IMG/VR virus record: IMGVR_UViG_3300036719_003345
Span: 1-24,554 of that record
Direction: 5' to 3' (one strand)
DNA: 24,554 bases
Source: a virus
Shown piece after piece: positions 2,271 to 16,435 of the stretch (positions are counted from its first letter, which is position 1; each line of letters opens with the position of its first letter). A program made the translations under genes and the position numbers. The notes under the pieces are model-generated. The model did no database searches, was not told the DNA's origin, and saw nothing but the letters and a program-made list of their open reading frames with translations.

Positions 2271-2692
2271 ATCAAACCACCATCTTCATTCAAAATCTCA
2301 AATCTTCCTCTCAGAAGCATATCTGAGAAGGTACTTCCTTTATTCAATTCAACTGTATAAAAATGTCTTCCTGCTGGAAGATAGCCCATTATATTTGATG
2401 TAAATTCAAAATAAATTCCACCGTTTAAAGTTGCCAAATTTTCATCTTTATTGATTCTGACGAAGCTTATTCCAGAATCATGTGAAAGTCCAGTTAATCC
2501 AGTTATTAAATATGTTACACCAACAAAATCAGATTGGAAGACTAAATTTTGTGAAGTTGGAACACTTTTAAAGATCTTGAAATCTATATTTTGAAATGTT
2601 GCAGAAATGGCTGCATCATTTGCGTCAAAATAAGTTAAAAGTAAATTAAAATTATTACCTTTTATCGCTTCAAGATCTTTTTGTGGTGTCAT
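2267..2692 (-). CDS. Putative virion structural protein, 141 aa
   Basis: The protein begins MTPQKDLEAIKGNNFNLLLT and is rich in beta-type segments (NIDFKIFKSV, GRHFYTVELNKG, RGRFEILNEDGG). It resembles the small Ig-like or baseplate-adaptor proteins often placed before tail fibre genes, where a two-strand opening 'kGdnf.l.v.f.d..g.a' is common. No catalytic motif, signal peptide or membrane helix is seen. The ATG overlaps the stop of the GT2-TPR gene (ATGA); AAGG lies upstream of it, and a GATAAATA box about 22 nt upstream could start a late transcript. The link to fibres comes from position and texture rather than a recognised family. Confidence 0.65.
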   Translation of the reverse strand: MTPQKDLEAIKGNNFNLLLTYFDANDAAISATFQNIDFKIFKSVPTSQNLVFQSDFVGVTYLITGLTGLSHDSGISFVRINKDENLATLNGGIYFEFTSNIMGYLPAGRHFYTVELNKGSTFSDMLLRGRFEILNEDGGLI

Positions 2693-3906
2693 TTGTATGC
2701 CTTATGCTTCTTTTTATTTATCTTCTTTAGCTCCTTTTGTTTTTGCTTTTCAACCATTTCTTGAACTCCTCGCTCATTCTGAATCTTAGCAACAATCTGC
2801 TTATAAGATTCAAAATTATGATTGATTCTTGCTCTTTCGCTCTCTGGGAATTTGTTTTCACAAATCAATTTGTGACATGCTTGTAGTCCTAGATGGAACT
2901 TACCGACAGAATGCGCCACAGCACCAAGCTCATCCAAATTGCCCCAAGAATATGGAATTTCTTCTATGAAAAGGGTATCTTCAATTGGTCTTGGTATTTC
3001 AAGAGCCATACGAGCATAATTATATGCTGCTCTTGGTCTTCCATGCATTCTATGTAATCTAGCCAATTGATATAATGGCTCTGCTCTTGTTGGTCTTGCT
3101 TCGTAAGACTTCATGAACATATCATATATTTCTGGCCAAGGATGTGCCAAGAAAGTCTTGCAGATAGCCATTCGATATACAGAGAAGAAAACTTCTTCTT
3201 CCCAACCACCCAAAGTAGATCTCTTTTCGTATGCTGCTAATGCCTTTTCCCACTGATGGGAATCGAAATAGCTTTGAGCAAGATAGAAGTGATATCTTAC
3301 ATTCGTTGGATCGTCTTGAATAGCCTTTTCAAGAAGTTCTGCATCTCTGGCGTATTTTTCTTTTGGATCAATACCAATGTTTCTAGCACCTTCAGTACGA
3401 GCTTCGATTGAGTACTTTCCAAAAATTTTATCTATCTTATAAGGCTTTGGTTCTGAATCTGGGTATTCATGAAGAACCCCAATATAGTGCCAGTCTCTAT
3501 TGTTCTTGAAAATTTGTGTTCTCCACCAAGTAAATTCTCCTCTGGCGAACTGTAGAGTATATGCATCTGCTGTTGGGTTTTGTGGGAACTCAAATTGACC
3601 GTTTACGCTATCGTCAGCATCAATGACCCAAGCATAGTCTGCCTTGCCCTTGGCGTTCTGGAATGCCTCTGTACGAGAACCTATCTTGCCTGCGTGATCA
3701 CCGAATCCCTTCCAGTCAGACTGGTAAATTTCTCCGGGGATGTTCTTCTCCTCAAAAAACTTACGAATCATGTCCTGAGTTCCATCAGTAGAACCAGTAT
3801 CAGTGATGTCGTAACGGTCTATGTACTTGTAGATTGATTCAAGGCAACGAAGAATGACATGGGTTTCATTCTTCACGATCATGCATAGTGTAATTGTAGG
3901 TTTCAT
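2689..3906 (-). CDS. GT2-family glycosyltransferase with TPR-like C-terminal domain
   Basis: The 405-aa product starts MKPTITLCMIVKNE, the typical first strand of a GT-A family 2 enzyme. It has the nucleotide-sugar signature DTGSTDGT at residues 36-43 and the metal-binding DxD as DADD at 96-99. From about residue 185 it becomes helical with TPR-like spacing (AELLEKAIQDDPTNVRYHFYLAQSY and later repeats). The tail is very Lys-rich (KQKQKELKKINKKKHKAYK). GT2-TPR proteins occur in marine T4-like phages and giant viruses; the acceptor is unknown and could be a virion protein or a host or phage glycan. It follows a perfect TATAAATA box whose 3' end is only 4 nt from the ATG. Its GC looks higher than that of the adjacent island genes, like the core genes. 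Confidence 0.88.
   Translation of the reverse strand: MKPTITLCMIVKNETHVILRCLESIYKYIDRYDITDTGSTDGTQDMIRKFFEEKNIPGEIYQSDWKGFGDHAGKIGSRTEAFQNAKGKADYAWVIDADDSVNGQFEFPQNPTADAYTLQFARGEFTWWRTQIFKNNRDWHYIGVLHEYPDSEPKPYKIDKIFGKYSIEARTEGARNIGIDPKEKYARDAELLEKAIQDDPTNVRYHFYLAQSYFDSHQWEKALAAYEKRSTLGGWEEEVFFSVYRMAICKTFLAHPWPEIYDMFMKSYEARPTRAEPLYQLARLHRMHGRPRAAYNYARMALEIPRPIEDTLFIEEIPYSWGNLDELGAVAHSVGKFHLGLQACHKLICENKFPESERARINHNFESYKQIVAKIQNERGVQEMVEKQKQKELKKINKKKHKAYK
2715..2722 (-). promoter_or_regulatory. Candidate T4-type late promoter box (GATAAATA)
   Basis: The minus strand reads GATAAATA in the last codons of the GT2-TPR gene, 22 nt before the ATG at 2692. The expected start would be near 2709, which leaves a short leader containing AAGG before the ATG. 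This geometry is what a real late promoter for the virion genes would need. The 7-base core also occurs by chance in AT-rich coding sequence. Confidence 0.4.
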
Positions 3907-3910
3907 GCTG

Positions 3911-3918
3911 TATTTATA
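3911..3918 (-). promoter_or_regulatory. T4-type late promoter box TATAAATA
   Basis: The minus strand carries a perfect TATAAATA, the -10-like element read by the gp55 late sigma factor encoded in this same window. It spans the junction between the SDR gene and the GT2-TPR gene: the SDR stop codon TAA (3914-3916) lies inside the box. The ATG of the GT2 gene (3904-3906) follows after 4 nt, so a start about 6 nt past the box would fall on the ATG itself. This marks a plausible boundary between the sugar island and the late virion block. Confidence 0.6.
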
Positions 3919-4681
3919 CCAATTTTTTTAGTTCGTTGTAAGTTTCTCGTATTCCTTGTTCAAGACCAATTGTCTTTATTGGAAGGTCAGAATCTTCACA
4001 ATAAAAATCTAACCCCTTTTCATTTATGACTATTGGTACTTTATAATCAGAAAGATTATTGATCATATTTGCAATGTCGAATAATGTAAATTTATTCTCG
4101 TAAGAACAATTTACTTCTTTACTAATATTATCGTTTTGTATATAAAAATCAACTAAAGATATCAGATCTTTCATATAGAAAAAATCCATAATTTTATCTT
4201 TATGGATTATTATTTGTTCTTTTTTCATATATCTGATTATATTTGATTTTATGAATCTAGTATCAAGTTCATTTTCATCAAATACTGCAAATATTCTTAA
4301 GTTATACCAACCATCAGTATTTTTTACTATGTCGCGTATATCTCTTTTGCTATCTCCATATGGAGTATCATGAAATATTTCAGCACCTGAACCAAAAGAT
4401 ATTAACTTTTTAAACTTATGTCTATTTGAATGAAGATTATTGATCATCTTCATATTATTTTCATAAATTAAATTATTTTCTTCTTTTAATCGGCTTCCAC
4501 CAGTTGTAGCTGTATGGATTACAACATCGTAAAATTTTTCATTAAACCATTCACAAGTAGAATTGTAATCAGATAAATCAAAATAATTTCTTGATATACA
4601 ATTAATGTTATATTTTTGCTGTAAAATGTTATTTAAAGATTTAGCTATATAACCATTTCCACCAGTAATTAATATATTCAT
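3914..4681 (-). CDS. NAD(P)-dependent epimerase/dehydratase/reductase (extended SDR)
   Basis: This 255-aa protein opens with the Rossmann motif TGGNGYIAKSL (GxxGxxA type). Its catalytic YxxxK is YGDSK, preceded by the Ser-rich FGSGAE strand. The segment DVVIHTATTGG followed by GSGAEI..TPYGDSK recalls GDP-fucose synthase and related 4-ketoreductases, but at 255 aa it is shorter than those enzymes (about 310-320). It probably reduces or epimerises a nucleotide-activated keto sugar. In this cluster it could reduce a branched ketone, as YerF does, or make a deoxysugar donor for the fucosyltransferases. The substrate cannot be read from the sequence. It is very AT-rich. It is preceded by a 48-nt AT-only gap, the largest gap within the island. 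Confidence 0.8.
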   Translation of the reverse strand: MNILITGGNGYIAKSLNNILQQKYNINCISRNYFDLSDYNSTCEWFNEKFYDVVIHTATTGGSRLKEENNLIYENNMKMINNLHSNRHKFKKLISFGSGAEIFHDTPYGDSKRDIRDIVKNTDGWYNLRIFAVFDENELDTRFIKSNIIRYMKKEQIIIHKDKIMDFFYMKDLISLVDFYIQNDNISKEVNCSYENKFTLFDIANMINNLSDYKVPIVINEKGLDFYCEDSDLPIKTIGLEQGIRETYNELKKLV

Positions 4682-4729: not shown

Positions 4730-5668
4730 TTATCGCTTAATATCGGATGGATTTGCTGTGATTGGAGTTACACAGTGATTTGGTTTTGCGTTATTTTCTA
4801 CTCTATCTTGCTCATACTTCCACTTATCATCGCCCAATAATTTCTCAAGCTCTTCTTCCTTAATTTCATAAAAATTATCTGGACCAGGAAATATACCAGA
4901 TCTAACTTCATCAACATATTGTACAAGAGCTTCTTGAATTATTTTTCCTGCCTCGCAATAACGCTTTACAAATTTTGATTTGAATTCCCAAAATAGACCA
5001 GTTAAATCATGGAAGATTACTAGCTGTCCATCAACTTCATTTCCGCCCCCGATTCCATATACAGGAATCTTTAATTCCCTAGCAATCATTCCTGCTGGTT
5101 CTTTTGGCATTGCTTCCAATAATAGTGCAGAACATCCTGCTTCCTGAAGTTTTAGTGCTTGATTTAAAATTACTTCTGCTTGATCTGCGGTCTTTCCTTG
5201 AACTCTGTATCCGCCTAGCTTTGCTCTTGTATGTGGTGTCAATCCAAGATGACTCATTACCATAATTCCAGAATCAACAATAGCCTTTACTCGGTCTATC
5301 ATTGCTCCCTCTACCTTTACCATATCGCAACCAGCGACTATAAAACGGCCTGCATTTTCAATTGCAACTTGATTGGATGGCTGATATGACATATAAGGCA
5401 TATCTCCAATCAAAAATGCATTTTGATTTCCCTTACTTACTGCTTCACAGCTTCTAATCATATCATCCATTGTTACTGGAATGGTTGTTTTATAGCCAAG
5501 TGTGGTCATTCCAAGAGAATCACCAATCAACACGCAATCTACTCCAGCTCTATCTGCAAGAATTGCTTGTGGATAATCATAAGCGGTAACTAGTACCGTT
5601 TTAATACCTTTAGCCTTATTTGTTGTTAGTGTAAGAATTGTTTTCTTTGTTTTGCTATCTGCTGCCAT
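4730..5668 (-). CDS. panB: Ketopantoate hydroxymethyltransferase family protein (PanB-like)
   Basis: The 312-aa product aligns by eye with PanB over residues about 22-260. PanB transfers a hydroxymethyl group from methylene-tetrahydrofolate to the alpha-carbon of 2-oxoisovalerate. Metal ligands are present in GDSLGM (D50) and GDMPYM (D89). Other PanB signatures are VKVEG (K118, E120), SHLGLTPH (H140) and LLLEAMP, whose E185 corresponds to the catalytic base. GGYRVQGK is also typical. All key residues I can check are kept, so it is likely active. It is about 45 residues longer than E. coli PanB, with an acidic C-terminal tail (EELEKLLGDDKWKYEQ). A strong AAGGAG ends 7 nt before the ATG; the upstream TAA stop lies just ahead of it. 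In this sugar cluster the true acceptor may be a keto sugar or keto acid other than 2-oxoisovalerate. Confidence 0.9.
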   Translation of the reverse strand: MAADSKTKKTILTLTTNKAKGIKTVLVTAYDYPQAILADRAGVDCVLIGDSLGMTTLGYKTTIPVTMDDMIRSCEAVSKGNQNAFLIGDMPYMSYQPSNQVAIENAGRFIVAGCDMVKVEGAMIDRVKAIVDSGIMVMSHLGLTPHTRAKLGGYRVQGKTADQAEVILNQALKLQEAGCSALLLEAMPKEPAGMIARELKIPVYGIGGGNEVDGQLVIFHDLTGLFWEFKSKFVKRYCEAGKIIQEALVQYVDEVRSGIFPGPDNFYEIKEEELEKLLGDDKWKYEQDRVENNAKPNHCVTPITANPSDIKR

Positions 5669-5679
5669 AACGAATCTCC

Positions 5680-7449
5680 TTATAAGGGGTTAATTATCAT
5701 TTCCTGTTTAAATTCTTCATCGTCTAAAAATGGGTACATATTTTCTAGTGGTTGAGAAACCAATTTGCCATCGCTATTTATCTTCGCAGAAGAAGAAGGC
5801 GACATGTTTTGTGAAAACGGACAAATTACTTCTATTAGTGCAAATCCATTTGTATTTAATATTTCTGGAAGTCGCTCATTAATATCTTCTTGTGTTTCCA
5901 ATTTATGGTAGGGCATATCATATGCATATGCTATTTTTGAAATTTCTGGGAATGAAAGGCCGGACTTTTTATCAGTTCCAAAGTAACGACTTTCAAAAAA
6001 TTTATCCATAGTATTTCTAATAGACAAATATCCTCCATTGTTTAAAACAAATATTTTTACGGGTAATCCATAATTAACTACAGTTTGCAATTCTTGAATA
6101 TTCATCTGAAAAGATCCATCACCTGTAATTGCAATAATTTGTTTTCTATTTGATGCTATTGCAGCACCAATTGATGCTGGAATAGAAAAACCCATATCTG
6201 CTTGTGCGCCTGATGTTATATACTTTTGATCATCTCGTATCTTTAGTGCTTGTGATGTTGCATAATATGCAGAACCAGCATCACTTATCACAATTGAATC
6301 TGGGCTGTTATATTCTGATAACTTTTCTATTAAATAGTAAATATTAATTCCGTCTTTTGTGTCCGTATATTCATCGACAAAAACTGGCCATTTATTTCTC
6401 CATCCTATACACTTATTTATCCAAGACTGATCTGTTTTATATTCTATATCATGCGTTTCATTGAAAAAATATTTTAGATCAGTGTTTATTTCCGCATCAA
6501 TTCTTATAGTATTTTTTTTGTGTTCATTCTTATCAATATCAACAACTAATACCTTGGCTTCTCTTGCAAAAGTTTCGTATCTAAATCCAGTGACGGAAAC
6601 ACTCAAACTGCTTCCAAGTGAAATAACTAAATCACTATTCTGTACAGCAAAGTTTCCAGCTCTATCCCCTTTTGTTCCAAGTCTTCCAACATATAGAGGA
6701 TGATTAGAAGGTAAAAAATCTATTCCAAGATAAGTAAATGCTACAGGTAAATTATATTTTTCAATAAATTGAATAAATTCTTTTCTGGTTCCTGATAGGT
6801 GAATGCCATATCCGGCTATAACAATAGGTCGTTTTGCATTTTTTAGATATTCTTCAAAAATAGAACAATCTACCTTATTATTTTCTTCATTTTTTTCAAA
6901 ATGTATTAATTCATTCTCATCAATATAACTGCCTTGTACATCCATAGGAATGTCAATCCAAACAGGTCCAGGTCTGCCCGATTCGCATATATGAAATGCT
7001 TTTTCTAAATGAAAAGCAATCATCTTTGGATCTGTTACCATTACTGCGTACTTTGTAATTGGTTTTACGATATCAACAATATTTGCTTCTTGTACGCCGA
7101 ATTTTCTCAATGGAATATTTAATCCATGAGTATTTTCTTTTCTATTCACATTTCCAGATATAAAAACAACCTTGTTACTATCTTGCCACGCATCAAGTAA
7201 TCCAGTAATCGTATTTGTTCCGCCGCATCCTGTAGTAGGCATTACTACTGATATTTCATTTGTGACCTTTGAATATCCAACAGCTCCCATAGCACATGCT
7301 TGTTCATGATGATTAAAAATTCCTTTTATGGTTTTACTTTTTGCTATTCCATCATTCAAAAACATAGCACCGCCACCTGTCACCATAAAAACATGTCGGA
7401 TTCCTTTTCTTTCTAAAAAAGAGGCAATATAATCTGAAACTCTTACCAT
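5680..7449 (-). CDS. Thiamine-diphosphate-dependent enzyme, acetolactate synthase / YerE-like
   Basis: This 589-aa enzyme has the three-domain layout of the acetolactate synthase family. The N-terminal domain contains HHEQACAMGAVGYSK, with E49 as the glutamate that activates the cofactor. A central domain follows (IVIAGYGIHLSG...). The C-terminal ThDP-binding domain has the GDGSF...NNGGYLSIR motif from about residue 442. The loop TTGCGGTN replaces the TSGPGATN of ordinary acetolactate synthase. The NNGGYLSIR variant is typical of ThDP enzymes I associate with O-antigen clusters. YerE, of this family, decarboxylates pyruvate and adds acetyl to a 4-keto-3,6-dideoxy sugar nucleotide. With an RfbH-like gene nearby, a YerE-type sugar branching role is the best guess. 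A role in branched-chain amino acid synthesis is less likely because reductoisomerase and dehydratase are absent here. Confidence 0.85.
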   Translation of the reverse strand: MVRVSDYIASFLERKGIRHVFMVTGGGAMFLNDGIAKSKTIKGIFNHHEQACAMGAVGYSKVTNEISVVMPTTGCGGTNTITGLLDAWQDSNKVVFISGNVNRKENTHGLNIPLRKFGVQEANIVDIVKPITKYAVMVTDPKMIAFHLEKAFHICESGRPGPVWIDIPMDVQGSYIDENELIHFEKNEENNKVDCSIFEEYLKNAKRPIVIAGYGIHLSGTRKEFIQFIEKYNLPVAFTYLGIDFLPSNHPLYVGRLGTKGDRAGNFAVQNSDLVISLGSSLSVSVTGFRYETFAREAKVLVVDIDKNEHKKNTIRIDAEINTDLKYFFNETHDIEYKTDQSWINKCIGWRNKWPVFVDEYTDTKDGINIYYLIEKLSEYNSPDSIVISDAGSAYYATSQALKIRDDQKYITSGAQADMGFSIPASIGAAIASNRKQIIAITGDGSFQMNIQELQTVVNYGLPVKIFVLNNGGYLSIRNTMDKFFESRYFGTDKKSGLSFPEISKIAYAYDMPYHKLETQEDINERLPEILNTNGFALIEVICPFSQNMSPSSSAKINSDGKLVSQPLENMYPFLDDEEFKQEMIINPL

Positions 7450-8396
7450 ATAAATTTATCTCTATAATAATTAACAATTTTTGGAAGTTCACTATCAAAT
7501 TGTTTAATAGGAATCCAACCCAAAGAGCGAAGCTTAGAATCGTCTAATGCGTATCTTACATCTTGTCCTGGTCTATTGCAAGAAAAATCAATATACTTTT
7601 CCATATCAAAAATATCAAGATTACTTGCTTTAAGAATCTTTTTCACTGTTTCAATATTTGTCTGCTCAAATCCACCACAAATATTGTATATCTCATTTTT
7701 GACACCAGCTTCAATTATTGTTATTATTCCCATAGCAGTATCTTCTGCATGTAACCAATTTCTAATTGGAGTGCCATTATTGTGTAGTGGTATCTTTCTG
7801 CCCAATTTTAAATACTTGCATGTCTTTGGTATAAGTTTTTCGACATATTGTCCGATTCCATAATTATTGGTTGGGCGAACAATTACATATGGAATACCAT
7901 ATGTTCTATTCCAGGCCATAATCAACATATCTGCGGCGGCTTTAGTAGCGGAATATGGATTCGATGGTTTTAAAATATCGGTTTCTTTGTGGCAATCCTC
8001 AATAATATCACCATAAACTTCATCTGTACTGAAATGAAGGAAAATAGGCATTTTACCATTTTCTTGTCTATAGTTTCGTATGAGTTTTAGTAAATTATGA
8101 ACTCCATCAATATTAGATTTAACAAAATCATCACTATTTGCTATAGAATTTCCAACATGTGTTTCGGCGGCTGCATTAATAATATAATCACAGTCATAAA
8201 GAAATGTTAAATCATTAATATCACAATGAACAAAAGAAAAATTAGGATATTTCTTGAATTCTTCAAGTAAATTTTTATTGGCCGCATATGTCATCTTATC
8301 TACACCTTTGACATACCATCCTTTTTCAAGGCATAGGCGGGTGATGTATGAACCAATAAAACCTAAACAACCAGTTACATATACTATTTTACTCAT
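7443..8396 (-). CDS. Nucleotide-sugar 4,6-dehydratase-like (RmlB-type extended SDR)
   Basis: The 317-aa product has the NAD-binding GxxGxxG as TGCLGFIGS (residues 8-16), then NAAAETHVGNSI and the substrate-binding SNIDGVHNLL. The dehydratase triad appears as STDEVYGD (T124, D125, E126) with YSATK (Y148, K152), and RPTNNYG follows. The TDE triad is the mark of hexose 4,6-dehydratases such as RmlB, rather than of epimerases. It would turn dTDP- or CDP-glucose into the 4-keto-6-deoxy sugar. RmlB uses dTDP-glucose, whereas an RfbH partner normally needs the CDP form, so the nucleotide specificity is open. ATGA overlap with the upstream gene; the stop overlaps the ThDP gene start by 7 nt. Confidence 0.87.
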   Translation of the reverse strand: MSKIVYVTGCLGFIGSYITRLCLEKGWYVKGVDKMTYAANKNLLEEFKKYPNFSFVHCDINDLTFLYDCDYIINAAAETHVGNSIANSDDFVKSNIDGVHNLLKLIRNYRQENGKMPIFLHFSTDEVYGDIIEDCHKETDILKPSNPYSATKAAADMLIMAWNRTYGIPYVIVRPTNNYGIGQYVEKLIPKTCKYLKLGRKIPLHNNGTPIRNWLHAEDTAMGIITIIEAGVKNEIYNICGGFEQTNIETVKKILKASNLDIFDMEKYIDFSCNRPGQDVRYALDDSKLRSLGWIPIKQFDSELPKIVNYYRDKFIW

Positions 8397-9070
8397 AATT
8401 GAATTGTGTCCAATAATTTACATTTTTCTTGAAATTGTTGATAAAAACCATCGTGAACTGCAACGCTCTCTGGATTTCCTCTGCCGTGGAAACCAAAGCA
8501 ATTATTTAAATTGTATTCACACTCTGGTATTCTTGACTCTAAGGAGAATTTCATAGCTACTTCTACTGGAGCATACTTACAATTATTTGCAATAAAATAA
8601 TCATAGTACATATTTGTTAATTCTCCATCGTCACAATATCCTAAAAATTTTAAATTTTTTGTGAGATGAATAAATTTATTACTTTTTAGAACAAATCCAC
8701 CATTTCCAACTCTATTTCTTCTTCCTTCCCATTTCCAGGGAGCACCAATATAATCATAATTGAAGAATTCATTTTTCCATAAATGAGGATTTATCACAAA
8801 TCCATCATCATGAATTCCAATATAATAGTCTGTCTTAATTATATCGGCTAAATGGGTATAGGTAAATAAAGATGATTCTTTATGCGTTGAATATTTAGTT
8901 TCTATGAATGTTATATCACTGGGTAATTTTTCTGGTTTTTGATTGCTGACTAATATAAGCTCGGCAAAATCAATATCTTTTGCACTATACAAAAGTGCTT
9001 TTATGCTTTGAGTTGGATTAACGCAATTATAAGATAAAAGAGTTATGTTTTTAAGATTTATCTTACTCAT
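8393..9070 (-). CDS. DUF5672-like putative glycosyltransferase
   Basis: The 225-aa protein contains the segments YYIGIHDDGFVINPHLW, FNYDYIGAPWKW and VGNGGFVLKSNKF, which I recognise as the pattern of the DUF5672 family. This family has a GT-A-like core and is found in polysaccharide and viral sugar clusters; DDG at residues 108-110 takes the place of the DxD metal site. The C-terminal part HGRGNPESVAVHDGF keeps the family's closing histidine region. It overlaps both neighbours by 4 nt (ATGA), so it is likely co-translated. The transferred sugar and acceptor are unknown. Confidence 0.72.
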   Translation of the reverse strand: MSKINLKNITLLSYNCVNPTQSIKALLYSAKDIDFAELILVSNQKPEKLPSDITFIETKYSTHKESSLFTYTHLADIIKTDYYIGIHDDGFVINPHLWKNEFFNYDYIGAPWKWEGRRNRVGNGGFVLKSNKFIHLTKNLKFLGYCDDGELTNMYYDYFIANNCKYAPVEVAMKFSLESRIPECEYNLNNCFGFHGRGNPESVAVHDGFYQQFQEKCKLLDTIQL

Positions 9071-9783
9071 AAATATTCTTGAAAAATTTTATTCATAATA
9101 TTGATTCGATTAACATTGCTCATACCAGTTAAATGAATTAAAAAATAATCTTTATTCCACGGATTTACAACATTAGGTCTATTTCTAGACCAGCCAACTT
9201 GATCAGATGGTTCTAAAAGAGGTATTGCAAGTTTATTATCTAAAGCAGAATTTAAATATCTGTGATGAATCATCTTCATTAACAATTTTAACTGTGTGCT
9301 ATAGAACAGAAAATTTATGGTATCTTGTTCATGTTGGAAATTCTTAGAAGCGGCTAAAAATGCTTCTTTAAAATATTTTAAGTTTTCTGTTTTTTTAATT
9401 ATAAAATTACCAGTATTAAAAGTACTATTGTTATTCCAGTCTGGGGATGCATAAAAAACATGCTGATCAGTTAATTCAAAATCTTCAATTTTATATGAAT
9501 CATTTGTTATTATTGCATCAGCATCTATCCACATAACAATATCATAATGCTCTAAAAAATCAAATACTCTTAATACTCTTAAAAATCCAATATCTGTATC
9601 TTTATATCTCCCGGATATATCAGAGCCAAACGATCTCATACAAATAAGATCATAATTATGCTTTTGTGCATATTTTTGTTTAGATTTCATAGAGGCATCT
9701 AAAACAGACATTATACCAGTATCTCCTTTTTCTGGAAAAATCTCTGTTGCCCCGGTAACTATTAAAATTCTTTTTTTGTACAT
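9067..9783 (-). CDS. DxD glycosyltransferase, GT34/galactosyltransferase-like
   Basis: I start this gene at ATG 9781-9783 (MYKKRILIVTGATE), one base after the stop of the methyltransferase gene. A longer frame begins at 9846 but would overlap that gene by 62 nt. The 238-aa product has a clear DxD in DIVMWIDADAII (D87, D89), preceded by GFLRVLRVFDFLEHY, and later FNTGNFIIKKTE and HEQDTINFLF. These match the layout of the GMA12/MNN10-type galactosyl and mannosyl transferases (GT34). It probably adds galactose or a related sugar. No membrane anchor is visible, so it acts in the cytoplasm. Shine-Dalgarno is weak, so translation probably depends on coupling to the upstream gene. Confidence 0.75.
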   Translation of the reverse strand: MYKKRILIVTGATEIFPEKGDTGIMSVLDASMKSKQKYAQKHNYDLICMRSFGSDISGRYKDTDIGFLRVLRVFDFLEHYDIVMWIDADAIITNDSYKIEDFELTDQHVFYASPDWNNNSTFNTGNFIIKKTENLKYFKEAFLAASKNFQHEQDTINFLFYSTQLKLLMKMIHHRYLNSALDNKLAIPLLEPSDQVGWSRNRPNVVNPWNKDYFLIHLTGMSNVNRINIMNKIFQEYL

Positions 9784-9784
9784 T

Positions 9785-10420
9785 TTATCTTGTTTTTTCA
9801 AAGACAAAAATTCCACAACCATTCCACCAGCCAGCAGAATCTTCATTTCCGAAGAAACATACTTGCATTGCTGGATATAATTGCAAATCTCTTATTGCTC
9901 TAAATGTACCTTGCTGAACTTTTGGCCAACACCAATCATCAACCATATAAATAAAGCTATCCGCCATTCCATTATAGTAATGAGTCAATGCTTTATAGTG
10001 ATCAAGTTCTTCATGATCTCCATCATAAAAATAAGCATCAACATTTTTGATACCTTTTTGTTCTAGATTAATACCAAAACAATCTTCATCTATTAAATTC
10101 GGTTCTTGACCCAAATTAGTTTTCCAATTATTTAAAAACTCTTGCTTGGGGGAACCAAATTGTGAAAAATTATCAACAACCCAATATTTTAAATTATTGG
10201 TATTTCCTTTTAGAGCAGCAATCGCTGTAGATCCATACCAAACTCCAATTTCAAGATAAGTTTTGATGTCCGGTAATCCGAGTAGTCTATTAGCAAAATG
10301 CTTATATTGTGTACCCGAAAATCCTTTTATAGAAAGAATTTCCGGTGTTACTTTTGATGGGATATTGCTATTAAGTGCTACTGTAACTGCGTTTTTTAAT
10401 TGTTCTGTTCTTGCTTTCAT
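9785..10420 (-). CDS. Class I SAM-dependent methyltransferase
   Basis: The start chosen is ATG 10418-10420 (MKARTEQLKNAV), because GGAG sits 6 nt before it. A second in-frame ATG at 10432 lies in a TAATG overlap with the upstream stop. The 211-aa product has SAM-binding motif I as TYLEIGVWYGSTAIAAL, an acidic end of the second strand in WVVDNFSQFG, and FYDGDHEELDHYKAL, which fits the class I Methyltransf_24-type group. It would methylate a sugar hydroxyl or amine, given its place between an RfbH-like and a glycosyltransferase gene; methylation of host-type O-antigen sugars is common. A nucleic acid target is less likely as no NPPY-type motif is present. Confidence 0.8.
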   Translation of the reverse strand: MKARTEQLKNAVTVALNSNIPSKVTPEILSIKGFSGTQYKHFANRLLGLPDIKTYLEIGVWYGSTAIAALKGNTNNLKYWVVDNFSQFGSPKQEFLNNWKTNLGQEPNLIDEDCFGINLEQKGIKNVDAYFYDGDHEELDHYKALTHYYNGMADSFIYMVDDWCWPKVQQGTFRAIRDLQLYPAMQVCFFGNEDSAGWWNGCGIFVFEKTR

Positions 10421-10431
10421 ATTATACTCCA

Positions 10432-11742
10432 TTATATCTGAGAAAAAAATGAATCTGCCACTACTTCAATATAATCCAGTTGAACATCAGTTATAACTGG
10501 GCTTGTTCCCAAGAAGAAGGTATCCGTCGTAACCTTTCTTGCATTGGGGTAATTATGTATGACTTCAAATTCATTCATCATGCCGGAATAAGCTGGCTGA
10601 AGCATAATATTTCCGGCAAAGTATGGCCTGGTTTGAATCTTATTTTCTTCAAAATAATTTACGATATCCTTTCTTCTGAAAGGGGCATCATCGCGGATAG
10701 TAATAGCAAAAGCAAACCAGCTAGGATCAGCATATTCCGTCGCCTTTGGTAAAATTAGCATGTCCTCATATTTTGAGAAGATTTTCTGAAGTCTTGCATG
10801 ATTGTGCTTTCTCTTCTCAATTATTTGCGGAAGCTTCTTTATTTGCGCCAGTCCCATTGCGGCTTGCTGTTCTGTTGGTTTTAGATTATATCCAATCTCG
10901 TCATACACATACTTGTGATCAAAGATTTCTTCTGGGAGGGCAGGAAGCCAATTAGAGAACCGCTTCTTGCACGATCCGTTCTTGAGTAGATTAGCCTTCT
11001 TACCGACGCAATAGCAGCCTCTACCCCACTCTCTGAAGCTTCTGGTGACTATCTCTTGCTGGTGTGTGTTACACGCCACAAATCCGCCCTCGCCCATAGT
11101 AATATGGTGTGCAGGATAGAACGAGCAGCTAGCAAGTTCGCCAAAAGAACCAAGTGGCTTATTCTTGTAAGTTGATCCCAAAGCATCACAGCAATCCTCA
11201 AGAAGCACAAGATCGTATTTCTTTACGATTTCCATGAGTCTATCCATATTTGGAGGATTTCCTAGGACATGAGCAAATGTAATGATCTTACAACCATCCT
11301 TAGCCTTTTCCTCTACCTGATCTAGGTTTAGATTTAGCGTATCAAGATCAATATCTACAAACACAGGCTCAAAACCAACCTGGAAAATGGGATTGATCGT
11401 GGTAGGAAATCCGGCTATTGGAGTAATTACCTTAGTTCCCTTTGGGAAATTGTATAATCTTTTTGATGTCATTGCAGACATCATAATTAAATTTGAACTA
11501 CTTCCGCTGTTTGTAAGAATACCGTATTCTTTACCCATTAGACGGGGAAATAATTGCTCAAAGCGAATTCCACTTTCTCCTAATGCCAGCCAACCATTTA
11601 GTAAAGATTTGGTGGTTTCGACATATTCATCAGCAGTAAAATAGGATCCTGCGTACTGAACCCAGTCCTGTCCAGCCACCCATATCTTACTCTGGTTTTT
11701 TTCATTAATATATTCTTCAATAGCTTTTAAAATGTGTTCCAT
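10432..11742 (-). CDS. rfbH: RfbH-like sugar-nucleotide 3-dehydratase (PMP enzyme with Fe-S motif)
   Basis: The 436-aa product belongs to the DegT/DnrJ/EryC1 fold type I family. The usual PLP lysine is replaced by histidine in SFYPAHHITMGEGG (H212), as in E1/RfbH and ColD. It also has the cysteines that separate E1/RfbH from ColD: C185 (LEDCCDALGS), C243 and C245 (GRGCYC). C185 and C243 are 57 residues apart, as in the E1 motif C-X57-C-X-C-X7-C, but the last cysteine is C258, giving X12 rather than X7. E1 uses PMP plus a [2Fe-2S] cluster to remove the C3 hydroxyl of CDP-4-keto-6-deoxyglucose and needs a reductase partner (E3), which is not in the window. Length matches RfbH (437 aa). The GC content looks higher than that of its neighbours, suggesting separate acquisition. 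Confidence 0.9.
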   Translation of the reverse strand: MEHILKAIEEYINEKNQSKIWVAGQDWVQYAGSYFTADEYVETTKSLLNGWLALGESGIRFEQLFPRLMGKEYGILTNSGSSSNLIMMSAMTSKRLYNFPKGTKVITPIAGFPTTINPIFQVGFEPVFVDIDLDTLNLNLDQVEEKAKDGCKIITFAHVLGNPPNMDRLMEIVKKYDLVLLEDCCDALGSTYKNKPLGSFGELASCSFYPAHHITMGEGGFVACNTHQQEIVTRSFREWGRGCYCVGKKANLLKNGSCKKRFSNWLPALPEEIFDHKYVYDEIGYNLKPTEQQAAMGLAQIKKLPQIIEKRKHNHARLQKIFSKYEDMLILPKATEYADPSWFAFAITIRDDAPFRRKDIVNYFEENKIQTRPYFAGNIMLQPAYSGMMNEFEVIHNYPNARKVTTDTFFLGTSPVITDVQLDYIEVVADSFFSQI

Positions 11743-11745
11743 GTT

Positions 11746-12510
11746 TTAATTAACCACAGCCAATTCTTTTTTTGATTGTATTTCTATATTTCCAATTTTA
11801 GTCTTTAACCAATTATTGGATGTATGAGTATACGAATAATTTGAGGTTTTTGCAAGATCAAAATAATTAATTATATCAGAGGGACAATAGCACTCAAAAT
11901 GTTGAAGTCGTGTTATAATATTATCAACAGGTCCATCATAACCATGAGTTTCTATATGTTCACACAATTTCTTTGCGCCTATTTTTGAAATACAATATGC
12001 AGCAAGACCTTCACATATTACGGGTTTAAGATTCGTGATTGCCTTCAAGCGATCATCAAAGGCAGCATTCGGCAAAGAATTTACTAAGCTTTGCTTTGGT
12101 TGATAATGAGCTGTTATAGCCTGTAAATATAATAAATCTATTTTGTTATAATCAAATTTTGTTAATCCATGTATATTAAAAGTCTTGGCAGGACGGCAAT
12201 CGTCTTCGCAAATGAGATAAACATTTTCATCTGATTGAATTAATTTTTTCCATAGTCTATAATGAGCCATTAAAGCTGCCATTTCACCAAATCTAACCCA
12301 AGATCTATTAGTACAAGCTAAAATATTTGATATTCTAAGTGGTATCTTTGCATTCTCAAACAAAAAATGAGGTGGATTGGAATGAAATTCAATTTCATTT
12401 TCGGAGACTCCCTTTTCAAATTGAAAAGGTATTTCTTGTTTTTGAAAAACTGAAATTATATCATTATGGCGTTCTGTTGCACTGGGCAGAGTAATTATTC
12501 TGGCTATCAT
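11746..12510 (-). CDS. Glycosyltransferase family 25 (LPS-type)
   Basis: The 254-aa protein opens RIITLPSATERH, the N-terminal strand and arginine turn of GT25 enzymes. It contains FGEMAALMAHYRLWKKLI (the family's 'GE.G...SH...W..' motif) followed by CEDDC, the acidic metal site. Later segments GLAAYCISKIGAKKL and GPVDN also match the family. GT25 enzymes often transfer galactose in lipooligosaccharide synthesis. It starts with an ATGA overlap on the GT10 gene upstream and ends 3 nt before the RfbH-like gene. A second, shorter GT25-like gene is at 14935-15567, so the island has two members. Confidence 0.85.
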   Translation of the reverse strand: MIARIITLPSATERHNDIISVFQKQEIPFQFEKGVSENEIEFHSNPPHFLFENAKIPLRISNILACTNRSWVRFGEMAALMAHYRLWKKLIQSDENVYLICEDDCRPAKTFNIHGLTKFDYNKIDLLYLQAITAHYQPKQSLVNSLPNAAFDDRLKAITNLKPVICEGLAAYCISKIGAKKLCEHIETHGYDGPVDNIITRLQHFECYCPSDIINYFDLAKTSNYSYTHTSNNWLKTKIGNIEIQSKKELAVVN

Positions 12511-13373
12511 AATGTAATTGTTTCTTTCAATTGTTTCTTTATAGAATTAAATGATTCTATAATATCATATTTAAATAAGGGAGCATTCTTCATCTTTTGA
12601 TAAAGATGCTCGTTAGAATCTATGTATTTCACATACTCAAGACATTCTTGCGGACTGCTAAAATTATTGACATAAATGAATGCTTCTGGATTAAAGTCGC
12701 TTAGACAATATGAATCTCCCCAGTAAATTGGAATACAGCCAGCTGTTTTGGCCTGGAATAATTTCTCAGTAACATATCCAACCTTCATTGTATTTTCAAA
12801 TGCCATAGCAAATCTAAATCCACAGATAGCATTATATTTTCTTATTTCGTTTCTATCAGGATCTCCATTTCCAAATGGTATTCCAAATCCATTGGTTTCT
12901 TTATAAGACTTTAATAGATTAAAAAATTCAACTCTATTCTTGTGAACAGCAGAAAATGGAGCTACGCAAAATCTATTTTTCTTTGTTTCTGACCACTGAT
13001 TATAATTAATTTGATCAACTTTGATTACTGGTATTGGATTTTTTTGATTTTGTAAATTATAAAAATTAATATAAAAATACCAAGCTGGAAAACGAATATT
13101 TTTTAAATCATATCTAGTAGGATCGAAAGATAAATGGTAGTCCCCATCCTTATACTGCACAGGTTTTGGTTCTGCCATAAAAGTTAATATTTTAGTTTTG
13201 GTTCTATCTATTTCCTTTGGTACATAATTTTCAGCTACTAAACATAAATTACAATCTCTTGGATTATTTGTTAATAATAAATCACTACCATATATTTCTT
13301 GCAACATTGATAGTAATATATTTTCTTGATAATTAAAGTCTGGCCAAAAATTATTGATACTTAACTTTATCAT
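12507..13373 (-). CDS. GT10 alpha-1,3-fucosyltransferase-like enzyme
   Basis: I place the start at ATG 13371-13373 (MIKLSINNFWPDFN), the conserved beginning of these enzymes. A TTG at 13388 would only add five residues. The 288-aa product carries the family core FRFAMAFENT...GYVTEKLFQA...GCIPIYWGD, with the acidic-Asn pair, EK and GxxPxYxG signature used by GT10 to bind GDP-fucose. Earlier LTFMAEPKP and later KYIDSNEHLYQKM are also family-like. It should transfer fucose (or a similar 6-deoxy sugar) in the cytoplasm. The start lies 23 nt inside the end of the upstream GT10 gene. The two GT10 proteins are distant and differ in their N-terminal halves. Confidence 0.87.
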   Translation of the reverse strand: MIKLSINNFWPDFNYQENILLSMLQEIYGSDLLLTNNPRDCNLCLVAENYVPKEIDRTKTKILTFMAEPKPVQYKDGDYHLSFDPTRYDLKNIRFPAWYFYINFYNLQNQKNPIPVIKVDQINYNQWSETKKNRFCVAPFSAVHKNRVEFFNLLKSYKETNGFGIPFGNGDPDRNEIRKYNAICGFRFAMAFENTMKVGYVTEKLFQAKTAGCIPIYWGDSYCLSDFNPEAFIYVNNFSSPQECLEYVKYIDSNEHLYQKMKNAPLFKYDIIESFNSIKKQLKETITL

Positions 13374-14187
13374 TATTAATACTTTCAAAGATACAATCGT
13401 CAGCTGTATTTAGCTGCAATACTTTATTGAAATTTGTCTCTACGCTTTTTATTTTTGTACGATACAAATCTGGTGAAAGAATACTTAGATCAAATCCTTC
13501 GTCTAGGAAAATTATTCCATTACAATCAAAATCTTCGCATATACTTTTATCACCATAATAAATTGGAATAGTTCCAGTAGCAAAACAATCAGTTACTTTT
13601 TCTGTATAGTACTTTGGATATTTTGCATTTTCTATGACTATAGAAAACATATAATTTTTAAGACCATCTATCTTATCATTAAGAAATCTATAATCTCTTC
13701 CAAAAATATGGTCTTTATAAAAAGGATGTTGAGATAATTTGTCAAATATCTCAAGTCTTAATTTATGCCCGGTTGTTGATTTTTTAAAACTTGTTATATA
13801 CGAGCAAAGATTTGTTTTATCGTATATTTTTGGTTCTGTTATCCAGGGAACATTAGATGATGGTGGATTATAAGAAAATAATTCTATATCTTTTTCTATT
13901 AATCTTCTATCATTAGTAAAAATTTTTTTATAGTATTTTTTTAATCCAGATATATTTGAAGATGCTGCTGAAAGTAGATGTGGTATAATTTCAGAAGATT
14001 CTCCAAGCCATCCATATCTTGGACCAGAATAACCATCTTTTATTCTACCAAAAATACTATCGTCAAAATAAACTACTGGTAAATTATCTTTTGGATACTG
14101 ATTAAAAATCCAATTAAACTTCTTCGGTGGATATTTTAAACAAGATCCACCTGTAAATGCATTTGTTATGATATGTAAGCTACTCAC
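13351..14187 (-). CDS. GT10 fucosyltransferase-like enzyme, second copy
   Basis: The core FSIVIENAKYPKYYTEKVTDCF followed by GTIPIYYGD is the GT10 signature, close to that of the next gene. I prefer GTG 14185-14187 as start (SSLHIITNAFTGGSC follows), because GTGA overlaps the GT11 stop and ITNAFTGGS.LKYPP looks like the natural N-terminus. ATG at 14217 would add 10 residues but overlap more. This gives 278 aa. The middle region (YGWLGESSEIIPHL, TNDRRLIEK) belongs to a phage and giant-virus subgroup often annotated only as glycosyltransferase. Donor is likely GDP-fucose or another GDP-deoxysugar. Very AT-rich. Confidence 0.83.
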   Translation of the reverse strand: MSSLHIITNAFTGGSCLKYPPKKFNWIFNQYPKDNLPVVYFDDSIFGRIKDGYSGPRYGWLGESSEIIPHLLSAASSNISGLKKYYKKIFTNDRRLIEKDIELFSYNPPSSNVPWITEPKIYDKTNLCSYITSFKKSTTGHKLRLEIFDKLSQHPFYKDHIFGRDYRFLNDKIDGLKNYMFSIVIENAKYPKYYTEKVTDCFATGTIPIYYGDKSICEDFDCNGIIFLDEGFDLSILSPDLYRTKIKSVETNFNKVLQLNTADDCIFESINNDKVKYQ

Positions 14188-14948
14188 ACCAAAACCATAT
14201 CTTTTCTGTAAATACATTCCCAGTTTTTGGGACTTTGCTTAAACCATTTCTTTGGAGCAACTATTTTCTTGTCTAAATTTTCATTTAACCAAGATCCCCA
14301 CCAAGAATAGCTACTATTTGAAATAATATTATGATCGCAAAGAGACATCAATCTTAGATCTATCTCATTTGTATTATCCATTATAATATTTGGCAAATGC
14401 TTAAAGTTTTTTGAGCACCACTTTTTATCATCTGTAAATATTACAAAGAAAGAATCTTTTCCAACTATTTCAATACCAGTATTAAAATAGCTCATATCAG
14501 ATAAGACAAATGCATCTTGAATATAAAGATAATCTCCTCTTCGTACATGAATTGATACTAAAGGTTTTCCTACCTTTTCCTTTAAATTTTTAATAAACTT
14601 ATAACATTTTTTGGTTAATTCTTCTTTAAAAGTAAATATTTTTCTAAGATCAATTTCATATTCTTCCACATATCTTGAATTCTGAAAATACCCGAAAAAA
14701 TCGGTATTATCTGGTATTGTTTTGGTATCAAGATAATCAAAATTGTTCATTTCAACTGCTTGGTGTTTAGGAGCAAAATCATCAGAATTGCTTCCTTCAA
14801 GATTAAAAATAGATGCTATTTCTGGTTTATTTTTAAAATCATAACCTATCTCAAACCCAGTTTTCTTTCCAGCATTATAGAGAAGAGAATATTGGAACAT
14901 TTGGTTTCCAAGTCTTCCCCATTTGCCCAAATTTTTAAAAGTTAACAT
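14184..14948 (-). CDS. GT11 alpha-1,2-fucosyltransferase
   Basis: All hallmark motifs of GT11 are visible in this 254-aa protein: GRLGNQMFQ at residues 11-19, the GDP-fucose binding HVRRGDY at 134-140, FFVIFTDDKKWC, and the C-terminal SNSSYSWWGSWLN. The length is slightly below typical bacterial enzymes (about 290). It transfers L-fucose in alpha-1,2 linkage, usually to galactose. A GGAG a few bases before the ATG gives it its own ribosome site despite a 14-nt overlap with the preceding gene. Hosts or other phage genes must supply GDP-fucose, since no GDP-mannose dehydratase is in the window. Confidence 0.93.
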   Translation of the reverse strand: MLTFKNLGKWGRLGNQMFQYSLLYNAGKKTGFEIGYDFKNKPEIASIFNLEGSNSDDFAPKHQAVEMNNFDYLDTKTIPDNTDFFGYFQNSRYVEEYEIDLRKIFTFKEELTKKCYKFIKNLKEKVGKPLVSIHVRRGDYLYIQDAFVLSDMSYFNTGIEIVGKDSFFVIFTDDKKWCSKNFKHLPNIIMDNTNEIDLRLMSLCDHNIISNSSYSWWGSWLNENLDKKIVAPKKWFKQSPKNWECIYRKDMVLV

Positions 14949-15567
14949 TCCTATTCTCCAGTGGTTTATCAGTAAGATACTGCCATTTGTTTAGGCCAGC
15001 AGCCTCATCGCTTTGGTAAAAGAATGGCTTATTGGGGGTCAGAACAATAGATTTTTCTTGTAATGAAGCAGTTGCAATATCGATTGGCTTCTTGAATCTA
15101 TGAACTATAGTTCTACCAAAGTTAAGAACATCGTTTCTATAATCTTCACTGAGATATAAAACTGCATGAAGAGCTAACACTCCACCTATCTTTAGATAAT
15201 CATTATTATATCGTCTGGTAATGTAATGCCGATTTCCAGTAGAAACTCCAAGATAGATAGCATCGGCTTCATCTGGAAGTTCAATCAGGGGTTGAAAGTC
15301 TTCTGAAACTCCAACATCATCTTCAAAAATAATGAACGGTGTTTTTATTTCCTTATTACCTAGAATCTTGAACATAGATTCAGCAACACCAACATAATGC
15401 TTTTCTGATTCTGGTGTTCCTAGAGGGGCAGGGCGAACTTCTGCATCCACTCTGTTATGATTCTTGAAGCCTAAACCGTCAAGTAAGGCTTGCATTCTAT
15501 GTTTATTTTTTGTATTTGAATCTAAATTAATCCAATACGCTGGTATTTCACGAAGATCTATTTTCAT
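14935..15567 (-). CDS. GT25-like glycosyltransferase, short form
   Basis: The 210-aa protein has the GT25-like opening IPAYWINLDSNTKNKHRMQALL (N-L-D then R in place of the family's NL..R..R) and IIFEDDVGVSEDF, the acidic metal motif. ADAIYLGVSTGNRHY, GGVLALHAVLYLSEDY and KPIDIATASLQEK follow the family's order. It is shorter than standard GT25 enzymes and lacks the clear GE.G...SH segment, so it may be a divergent subgroup. GC looks higher than in the flanking genes. It starts 20 nt inside the end of the upstream gene. Confidence 0.75.
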   Translation of the reverse strand: MKIDLREIPAYWINLDSNTKNKHRMQALLDGLGFKNHNRVDAEVRPAPLGTPESEKHYVGVAESMFKILGNKEIKTPFIIFEDDVGVSEDFQPLIELPDEADAIYLGVSTGNRHYITRRYNNDYLKIGGVLALHAVLYLSEDYRNDVLNFGRTIVHRFKKPIDIATASLQEKSIVLTPNKPFFYQSDEAAGLNKWQYLTDKPLENRNVNF

Positions 15568-16435
15568 TTCTATTTACTCCATCATGATCACGAATTTCTT
15601 TATCCATATGAATGTATTCCAATTCAGGGGAATTTATCAAAGTTATCGCTGCAATCGAACTTCTAGTTAACATAGCTGTCTTGCATTTACTCAAACACAA
15701 AACTTCAAGTAGGATATTATCTATCAGTCTTTCTTGATGCATTGAATATTGAAAATAATTATATTTTGGCGACCAGCCTTCATGGATAGGAACTTTATTT
15801 GTGCTTCTAATTACATGATCAAAATAAAATACTTTATCTTTAAAAATATTTTTTACAATATCAACATATTCCTGCTCGTCGCTCATGACAAATATTTTTG
15901 AGTGCTTTGCCTGAGAAAAAGCAGTATCTATTTTTTTGATAATAGATTCAATTGTCAGCTTTTTTCCATGCAAATGCGAATCTGTTCCTCTAATATGAAC
16001 TCCCAGATATTCTGAAAAGTTAATACTTTTTGTAAATGATTCTATCATTTTAACTATATTATCAGATAATGTAAAATTATTTTTCCATGTTTGATTAAAT
16101 TTTTGCCTGTATTCTGGCAACATCATTCCATCATAATCTACAATAGATGCCATATTAAAATATTGTTCGGCGGAAGGTGGAATGTTTATTAATTCATCTT
16201 TGCCTTCAGTTTGTAGAATGTTATTAATATTATTAAGTGTTTTTGCATCATTAAAAACATAAAACCAAGGAGAATATTTGTTGTAGATATTATAATATCT
16301 AAACATTTCATTTTTATCTAAATAAAAATTTACATTATTGGTTTCGCAATAGTTAACTAAACCTATTAGCTGATATAGGGTAGCACAAAAACCATTCCTA
16401 CATGTTTTTAATGTAATACTTTTTGGTTTATTCAT
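15548..16435 (-). CDS. NodZ/O-fucosyltransferase-like enzyme (HxRxxD type)
   Basis: The 295-aa product has an N-terminal segment CRNGFCATLYQLIGLVNYCE, comparable to the 'G..N.l..l..al..A' opening of fucosyltransferases. The donor-binding motif is GVHIRGTD (H147, R149, D152), followed by FSQAKHSKIFVMSDEQEY. The C-terminal LTRSSIAAITLINS gives the closing Ser-rich loop. This fits the alpha-1,2/alpha-1,6/O-fucosyltransferase superfamily (GT11, GT23, NodZ, GT65), nearer to NodZ-type than to the classical GT11 two genes downstream. It should use GDP-fucose. The gene overlaps the 98-aa upstream gene by 8 nt. Confidence 0.78.
   Translation of the reverse strand: MNKPKSITLKTCRNGFCATLYQLIGLVNYCETNNVNFYLDKNEMFRYYNIYNKYSPWFYVFNDAKTLNNINNILQTEGKDELINIPPSAEQYFNMASIVDYDGMMLPEYRQKFNQTWKNNFTLSDNIVKMIESFTKSINFSEYLGVHIRGTDSHLHGKKLTIESIIKKIDTAFSQAKHSKIFVMSDEQEYVDIVKNIFKDKVFYFDHVIRSTNKVPIHEGWSPKYNYFQYSMHQERLIDNILLEVLCLSKCKTAMLTRSSIAAITLINSPELEYIHMDKEIRDHDGVNRNENRSS

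Follow-up and report, generated by a model that had tools for sequence, protein, structure and literature searches.

A viral PanB homolog linked to a YerE-like carboligase gene in a putative branched-sugar operon of a T4-like phage

The window, the whole stretch of DNA analyzed here, is a 24,554-base IMG/VR fragment of a T4-like phage in which a glycan module on the minus strand lies between collagen-like repeat genes (0-2.1 kb) and T4-like replication-type genes (16.7-24.5 kb). The latter, which encode UvsW, gp46/47, gp45/44/62, and RegA and flank the module, agree with the phage origin put forward in the original prediction. The gp44 protein of the window phage is 52 to 54% identical to those of phages of Synechococcus, Prochlorococcus, Pelagibacter, and Methylophilales, and a host cannot be assigned from it across these several groups. 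A near-identity search of INPHARED with the window returned zero matches, and protein searches of the same collection gave no PanB match spanning 80% of the query; they retrieved mostly ilvB/panB-type genes, many of them in bacterial-looking records. Two other IMG/VR contigs (L002 and L003) carry an essentially identical module, with proteins 99 to 100% identical to those of the window. Collagen-like G-X-Y repeats are found in two minus-strand proteins (positions 2-2145, with PF01391 in 823-2145), which are candidate fiber proteins adjoining the glycan module.

In order of window coordinates, and all on the minus strand, the module comprises a GT2 glycosyltransferase with TPR repeats (2689-3906; PF00535 and TPR families) and a 255-residue SDR of the RmlD/epimerase type (3914-4681; PF01370/PF04321), a candidate ketoreductase of a new branch in a YerF-like role. 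These are followed by a 312-residue PanB-family hydroxymethyltransferase, the proposed donor-making enzyme (4730-5668; PF02548, TIGR00222), a 589-residue YerE-like ThDP-dependent carboligase, the proposed branching enzyme (5680-7449; TPP_enzyme N, M, and C), and a 317-residue RmlB-like NDP-hexose 4,6-dehydratase with an STDEVYG motif (7443-8396; TIGR01181). Further along lie a DUF5672 protein, probably a glycosyltransferase (8393-9070; PF18922, E = 2e-14), a GT34-like glycosyltransferase (9067-9846; PF05637, E = 7e-11), a Methyltransf_24-like protein, possibly a sugar methyltransferase (9785-10432; PF13578, E = 9e-5, 23.7 bits against a gathering score of 26.3), and a 436-residue RfbH/E1-type PMP-dependent [2Fe-2S] sugar 3-dehydratase (10432-11742; NF011936 and E1 structures). 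A glycosyltransferase array occupies 11746-16435 and consists of a GT25 protein (PF01755), two GT10 proteins (PF00852 twice), a GT11 protein (PF01531), and two unassigned proteins; the activated sugars are probably the substrates of this array. Gene spacing is tight, with a gap of 11 bases between the PanB and ThDP genes, an overlap between the ThDP and RmlB-like genes, and operon genes that overlap or abut. The PanB, RmlB-like, RfbH-like, ThDP, and SDR families that had been predicted here were all recovered on this strand by profile searches. Their placement within 4730-11742 holds for four of them; the SDR gene lies just outside, and the same span contains three extra genes, those for the DUF5672, GT34-like, and Methyltransf_24-like proteins.

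The RmlB-like protein scores 305 bits against TIGR01181, below the equivalog cutoff of 365, and only 71 bits against the CDP-glucose 4,6-dehydratase model TIGR02622, for which the cutoff is 278. Neither RfbF nor RfbG of the yersiniose pathway is present in the window. Because the 4,6-dehydratase is RmlB-like and not RfbG-like, the predicted sugar nucleotide is more likely to be dTDP than CDP. Copies of this dehydratase that are 58 to 90% identical occur in viral cassettes elsewhere. The RfbH protein scores 473 bits against NF011936 (cutoff 423), and E1 (3bcx/3bb8; E ≈ 1e-104) is its top hit in the PDB. His212 replaces the PLP lysine, which is the signature of a 3-dehydratase, and four candidate FeS cysteines (C185, C243, C245, and C258) occupy positions that we take to match the FeS ligands of E1. 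Both features extend well beyond the window. In the viral PanB loci described below, all 82 DegT-family proteins have His at the PLP-lysine position, and the four cysteines aligned to the E1 ligands are kept in 63 of the 64 long ones; among ThDP loci without PanB, the His is present in 39 of 40 DegT proteins. Some loci encode DegT proteins of 380 to 395 residues, and a reading of these as aminotransferases was dropped, since the alignment shows His in place of the PLP lysine. The ThDP gene is linked to a 3-deoxy-4-keto sugar pathway by RfbH in the window and by a His-type DegT enzyme in 78 of 87 PanB loci.

As had been anticipated, neither a CDP-glucose synthase nor an E3 reductase partner of RfbH is present among the Pfam matches of the window, and no nucleotidyltransferase was found in the window. 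The lack of the latter and of the E3 electron donor that RfbH needs, together with the sub-cutoff score of the RmlB-like protein, counts against the donor pathway proposed below. Because an NTP_transferase was found in just 5 of 42 related viral records, the activated glucose may come from the host.

The ThDP protein contains all three TPP_enzyme domains and keeps the catalytic Glu49 and the GDG...NN cofactor motif. Its closest PDB match, and closest solved relative, is 8rph (394 bits), the Janthinobacterium enzyme JanthE, which has been described as YerE-like (PMC12188165); the best AHAS match reaches 256 bits. The motif reads CDG in JanthE, whereas the window protein has the canonical GDG. 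Against TIGR00118 the protein scores 364.5 bits (cutoff 538), and it falls under every AHAS equivalog cutoff shown. In a 78-row tree, the window protein belongs to a 61-row clade (SH-aLRT 100) that includes JanthE, bacterial sugar-cluster ThDPs, and all viral ThDPs, and IlvI, other AHAS-like rows, and Gcl fall outside it. Grouping inside true acetolactate synthases, which was to have refuted the original prediction, is therefore not what the tree gives. The fine placement remains unsure because the tree contains long branches, JanthE among them, and omits the YpYerE sequence. On sequence evidence, the assignment as a YerE-like carboligase is well supported; acyl addition to a ketone acceptor is inferred, without assay data.

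Bacterial relatives of the ThDP protein were sampled from 297 genomes of one phylum, 18 of which gave a match at E < 1e-85, and are 41 to 52% identical to it. The nearest (L183, 52%) adjoins an HpcH/HpaI-type aldolase and RfbH. Several bacterial YerE-like ThDP genes lie in clusters with RfbH and an SDR, with a nucleotidyltransferase as well in L209. The window SDR is 27 to 30% identical (E = 1e-31 to 1e-33) to the SDRs beside the ThDP genes of L209 and L213.

Among known systems, the yersiniose A pathway (RfbF-RfbG-RfbH, YerE, and YerF) likewise places a 4,6-dehydratase, an RfbH-type 3-dehydratase, a YerE-like carboligase, and an SDR in one cluster. The phage operon differs in that an RmlB-like enzyme replaces the CDP-specific RfbG, PanB is added, the window has no cytidylyltransferase or E3, and the genes are phage-encoded. 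In the erwiniose pathway of Pectobacterium, the YerE-like enzyme ErwE prefers 4-hydroxy-2-oxo acids as donors (PMC12247030), as we propose for the phage ThDP enzyme. The source of the ErwE donor was not found in the literature searched, whereas for the phage operon we propose PanB, drawing on a folate C1 unit, as the donor maker. The original idea of a branched-chain deoxysugar pathway gains support from the position of the ThDP protein outside the AHAS clade and from the recurrence of the gene set in sugar clusters of other viruses and of bacteria, the absence of which was also to have refuted it; PanB itself occurred in such clusters only in viruses among the loci examined. That the phage encodes a YerE-type pathway to a branched sugar is, on sequence evidence, a well-supported prediction.

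The new element relative to these systems is PanB. The protein meets the criteria of its family (PF02548, E = 9e-95; TIGR00222, 269.6 bits, cutoff 207.6; NF001452 also passed) and retains the metal and catalytic residues, which we take to be D45, S46, D84, K112, E114, H136, and E181 in E. coli PanB; the catalytic residues are invariant across 15 viral copies. A structure model of moderate confidence (pLDDT 72) matches the PanB structures 1o68 and 1m3u and confirms the fold only. The fold and catalytic residues are the same as in the E. coli enzyme (1m3u), and the pocket residues look near canonical. In place of E. coli Q142, V144, V183, L213, and P227, the viral clade has H, R, M, V, and S, respectively; it also carries a C-terminal extension and lacks a PanC partner. 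Compared with the best 80 bacterial PanB matches listed, the signature residues of the viral clade are H146, R148, M187, Y204, V217, and S231, with H146 (E. coli Q142) present in 100% of the viral clade and in 0% of those 80. The clade is monophyletic (UFBoot/SH-aLRT 100/99). The same 80 matches are 41 to 51% identical to the window PanB, and none of them has a ThDP gene nearby; no bacterial origin for the viral clade emerged among the matches listed, and one is not excluded. A second viral lineage is represented in the tree by L009, which groups with bacterial PanB (100/100) and has Q where the main clade has H146; ≈14 loci (L009 and L368-L381) carry a bacterial-like PanB of this type and share the branched-sugar setting. 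Because both lineages occur in this setting, more than one recruitment of PanB is probable.

The association of PanB with the ThDP gene was followed in 87 fetched viral PanB loci (≈81 contigs), picked by similarity to the window PanB. A ThDP gene neighbors PanB in every one, usually less than 35 bp away and in both gene orders, with the ThDP protein 32 to 100% identical to that of the window. Since the loci had been chosen in this way, we checked the result with a second scan that started from bacterial-type PanB; among the 77 new viral loci that it gave, many on contigs already seen, the ThDP gene is adjacent in 73 and within three genes in 3, and one locus is at a contig end. The viral loci are phylogenetically related, and these counts are not independent. 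The association is not due to chance, being found again on dozens of further viral contigs. In nearly every viral PanB contig or locus examined in IMG/VR, PanB sits in a probable branched-sugar cassette. A tandem pair of ThDP genes adjoins PanB in four loci (L375-L377 and L379), and two proteins resembling the N- and C-terminal halves of transketolase are encoded beside the PanB-ThDP pair in L051 (12585-14287) and L244.

Viral PanB has previously been interpreted through pantothenate synthesis, in prasinoviruses (PMC6851583) and in oxygen-minimum-zone viromes, in one of which it was the most abundant vitamin gene and was taken as a boost to CoA (PMC8940887). Applied to this operon, auxiliary metabolism of that kind would make the ThDP protein an acetolactate synthase and PanB a ketopantoate hydroxymethyltransferase, raising host valine, pantothenate, and CoA; both families do act in the valine/pantothenate route, and PanB lies above the TIGR00222 cutoff. 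We consider this very improbable given the position of the ThDP protein outside the AHAS clade and below the AHAS cutoffs, and given a setting of sugar genes with His-type dehydratases. The partner enzymes PanC (PF02569) and IlvD (PF00920) are also lacking, with 0 of 33 related viral records encoding either, positive controls included, in records that are fragments. By contrast, the record of Microcystis phage MaAM05 has panB near panC, with no sugar gene annotated there. The missing partners and the MaAM05 contrast render the pantothenate readings doubtful for the viral PanB clade, to which they probably do not apply; the published sequences themselves were not compared. Because nearly every IMG/VR PanB locus examined is in a branched-sugar cassette, the CoA-boost reading of viral PanB probably needs revision.

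A different view of PanB emerges from what takes its place. ThDP-seeded scans yielded 100 distinct viral ThDP loci, which we scored for the kind of neighboring gene: PanB in 42, an HpaI-like aldolase in 21, a NeuB-like protein in 12, a DJ-1/cupin module in 11, an HMGL-like aldolase in 5, and none in 9. No locus has two kinds, and independent occurrence at these rates was calculated to give two or more kinds in about a fifth of loci, an expectation that shared ancestry weakens as a test. The bacterial YerE-like loci show the same swapping habit, with HpaI-like proteins in L183, L211, and L216 (the last below the gathering score), NeuB in L210, L212, L214, and L215, and acetaldehyde dehydrogenase with a DmpG-like protein in L217. 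The viral HMGL, L183 aldolase, and DmpG-like assignments were made by sequence reading and not by Pfam search. In the DJ-1/cupin loci (e.g., L231, 7771-9371, and L284, 4398-6001), three genes encoding DJ-1/PfpI-like, cupin-like, and, by eye, HAD-like proteins replace PanB beside the YerE-like ThDP gene; this module, at about a tenth of ThDP loci, is not an obvious source of an oxo acid and so weighs against the donor reading. All the other neighbor kinds come from families whose products are 4-hydroxy-2-oxo acids, the donor class preferred by the YerE-like ErwE. The products of HpaI-type and DmpG-type aldolases and of NeuB-type synthases are of this class. In E. coli, both PanB and the aldolase YfaU can form 4-hydroxy-2-oxo acids when given 2-oxo acids with formaldehyde (PMC7611260); a literature search for PanB with 4-hydroxy-2-oxobutanoate under that name found nothing. 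Because the neighboring gene is exchanged among 4-hydroxy-2-oxo-acid-making families and is always beside the ligase, we infer that it makes the donor.

Two roles had originally been offered for PanB, and the swapping of aldolase and synthase families at this position favors donor preparation over lengthening of the branch. For the latter, PanB would act after the ThDP enzyme and hydroxymethylate the methyl ketone of a sugar-bound acetyl branch, adding one carbon, which would account for the tight pairing of the two genes. The known reactions of PanB-type enzymes take place on free 2-oxo acids, however, and the same PanB clade pairs with ThDPs only 32 to 57% identical to that of the window, which makes a sugar-bound substrate less likely; the exchange with aldolases and synthases also suits a free-acid donor. 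Branch lengthening by PanB is, in our estimation, quite unlikely.

With PanB as donor maker, host enzymes would provide an NDP-glucose, probably dTDP-glucose, which the RmlB-like enzyme would convert to a 4-keto-6-deoxy sugar and from which RfbH would take off the 3-OH to leave a 3,6-dideoxy-4-keto sugar. PanB would extend a small 2-oxo acid by the C1 unit of 5,10-methylene-THF, in the simplest case turning pyruvate into 4-hydroxy-2-oxobutanoate. The YerE-like ThDP enzyme may then decarboxylate the 4-hydroxy-2-oxo acid and transfer the hydroxyacyl unit to C4 of the sugar, after which the SDR would reduce the new branch ketone. The finished glycan might decorate either the virion or the host surface, and the evidence decides neither. 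We think it likely that the operon produces an NDP-activated 4-C-branched 3,6-dideoxy sugar for the neighboring glycosyltransferases with PanB in this role, although product and substrates are untested. The sequences themselves establish the enzyme families, the conserved catalytic residues, the recurrent linkage, and the swapping beside the ThDP gene; the order of the steps is inferred, as are the choice of nucleotide and of 2-oxo acid and the nature of the product. Donor making is the best-supported reading of PanB, the new part, for which there are no enzyme activity data.

The identity of the 2-oxo acid bears on a further alternative. With a pocket near canonical, PanB could use its usual 3-methyl-2-oxobutanoate within the same pathway, and the donor would be ketopantoate, giving a gem-dimethyl hydroxyacyl branch. 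Viral PanB is like bacterial PanB in its catalytic residues and over much of its pocket, but the viral clade has unique residues (H146, R148, M187, and V217) at otherwise conserved positions. A quaternary carbon adjacent to the reacting carbonyl, as in ketopantoate, disfavors a carboligation donor. In favor of this alternative, the YerE-like enzyme JanthE accepts a hindered donor, 4-methyl-2-oxovalerate (PMC12188165). Overall, we rate a ketopantoate donor as unlikely. Returning to a 4-hydroxy-2-oxo acid donor, we see an even chance that the viral PanB is a sugar gene that supplies this donor to the YerE-like enzyme for an undescribed 4-C-(1,3-dihydroxypropyl)-type 3,6-dideoxy sugar, with the donor module exchanged for aldolase, NeuB-like, and other modules that vary the branch.

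The cassette ties YerE-like enzymes to donor genes and offers interchangeable donor modules, and donor choice is directly testable. A 2025 review of YerE-like enzymes pointed to viruses as a so far unexplored reservoir of surprising functions (PMC12247030). If displayed on virions or infected cells, an exotic sugar could affect adsorption, superinfection exclusion, or defense. Micromonas virus MpV1 is reported to encode acetaldehyde dehydrogenase, acetolactate synthase, an aminotransferase, and dTDP-glucose 4,6-dehydratase, and Ostreococcus viruses PanB (PMC5454428, PMC6851583); these could also be branched-sugar genes.
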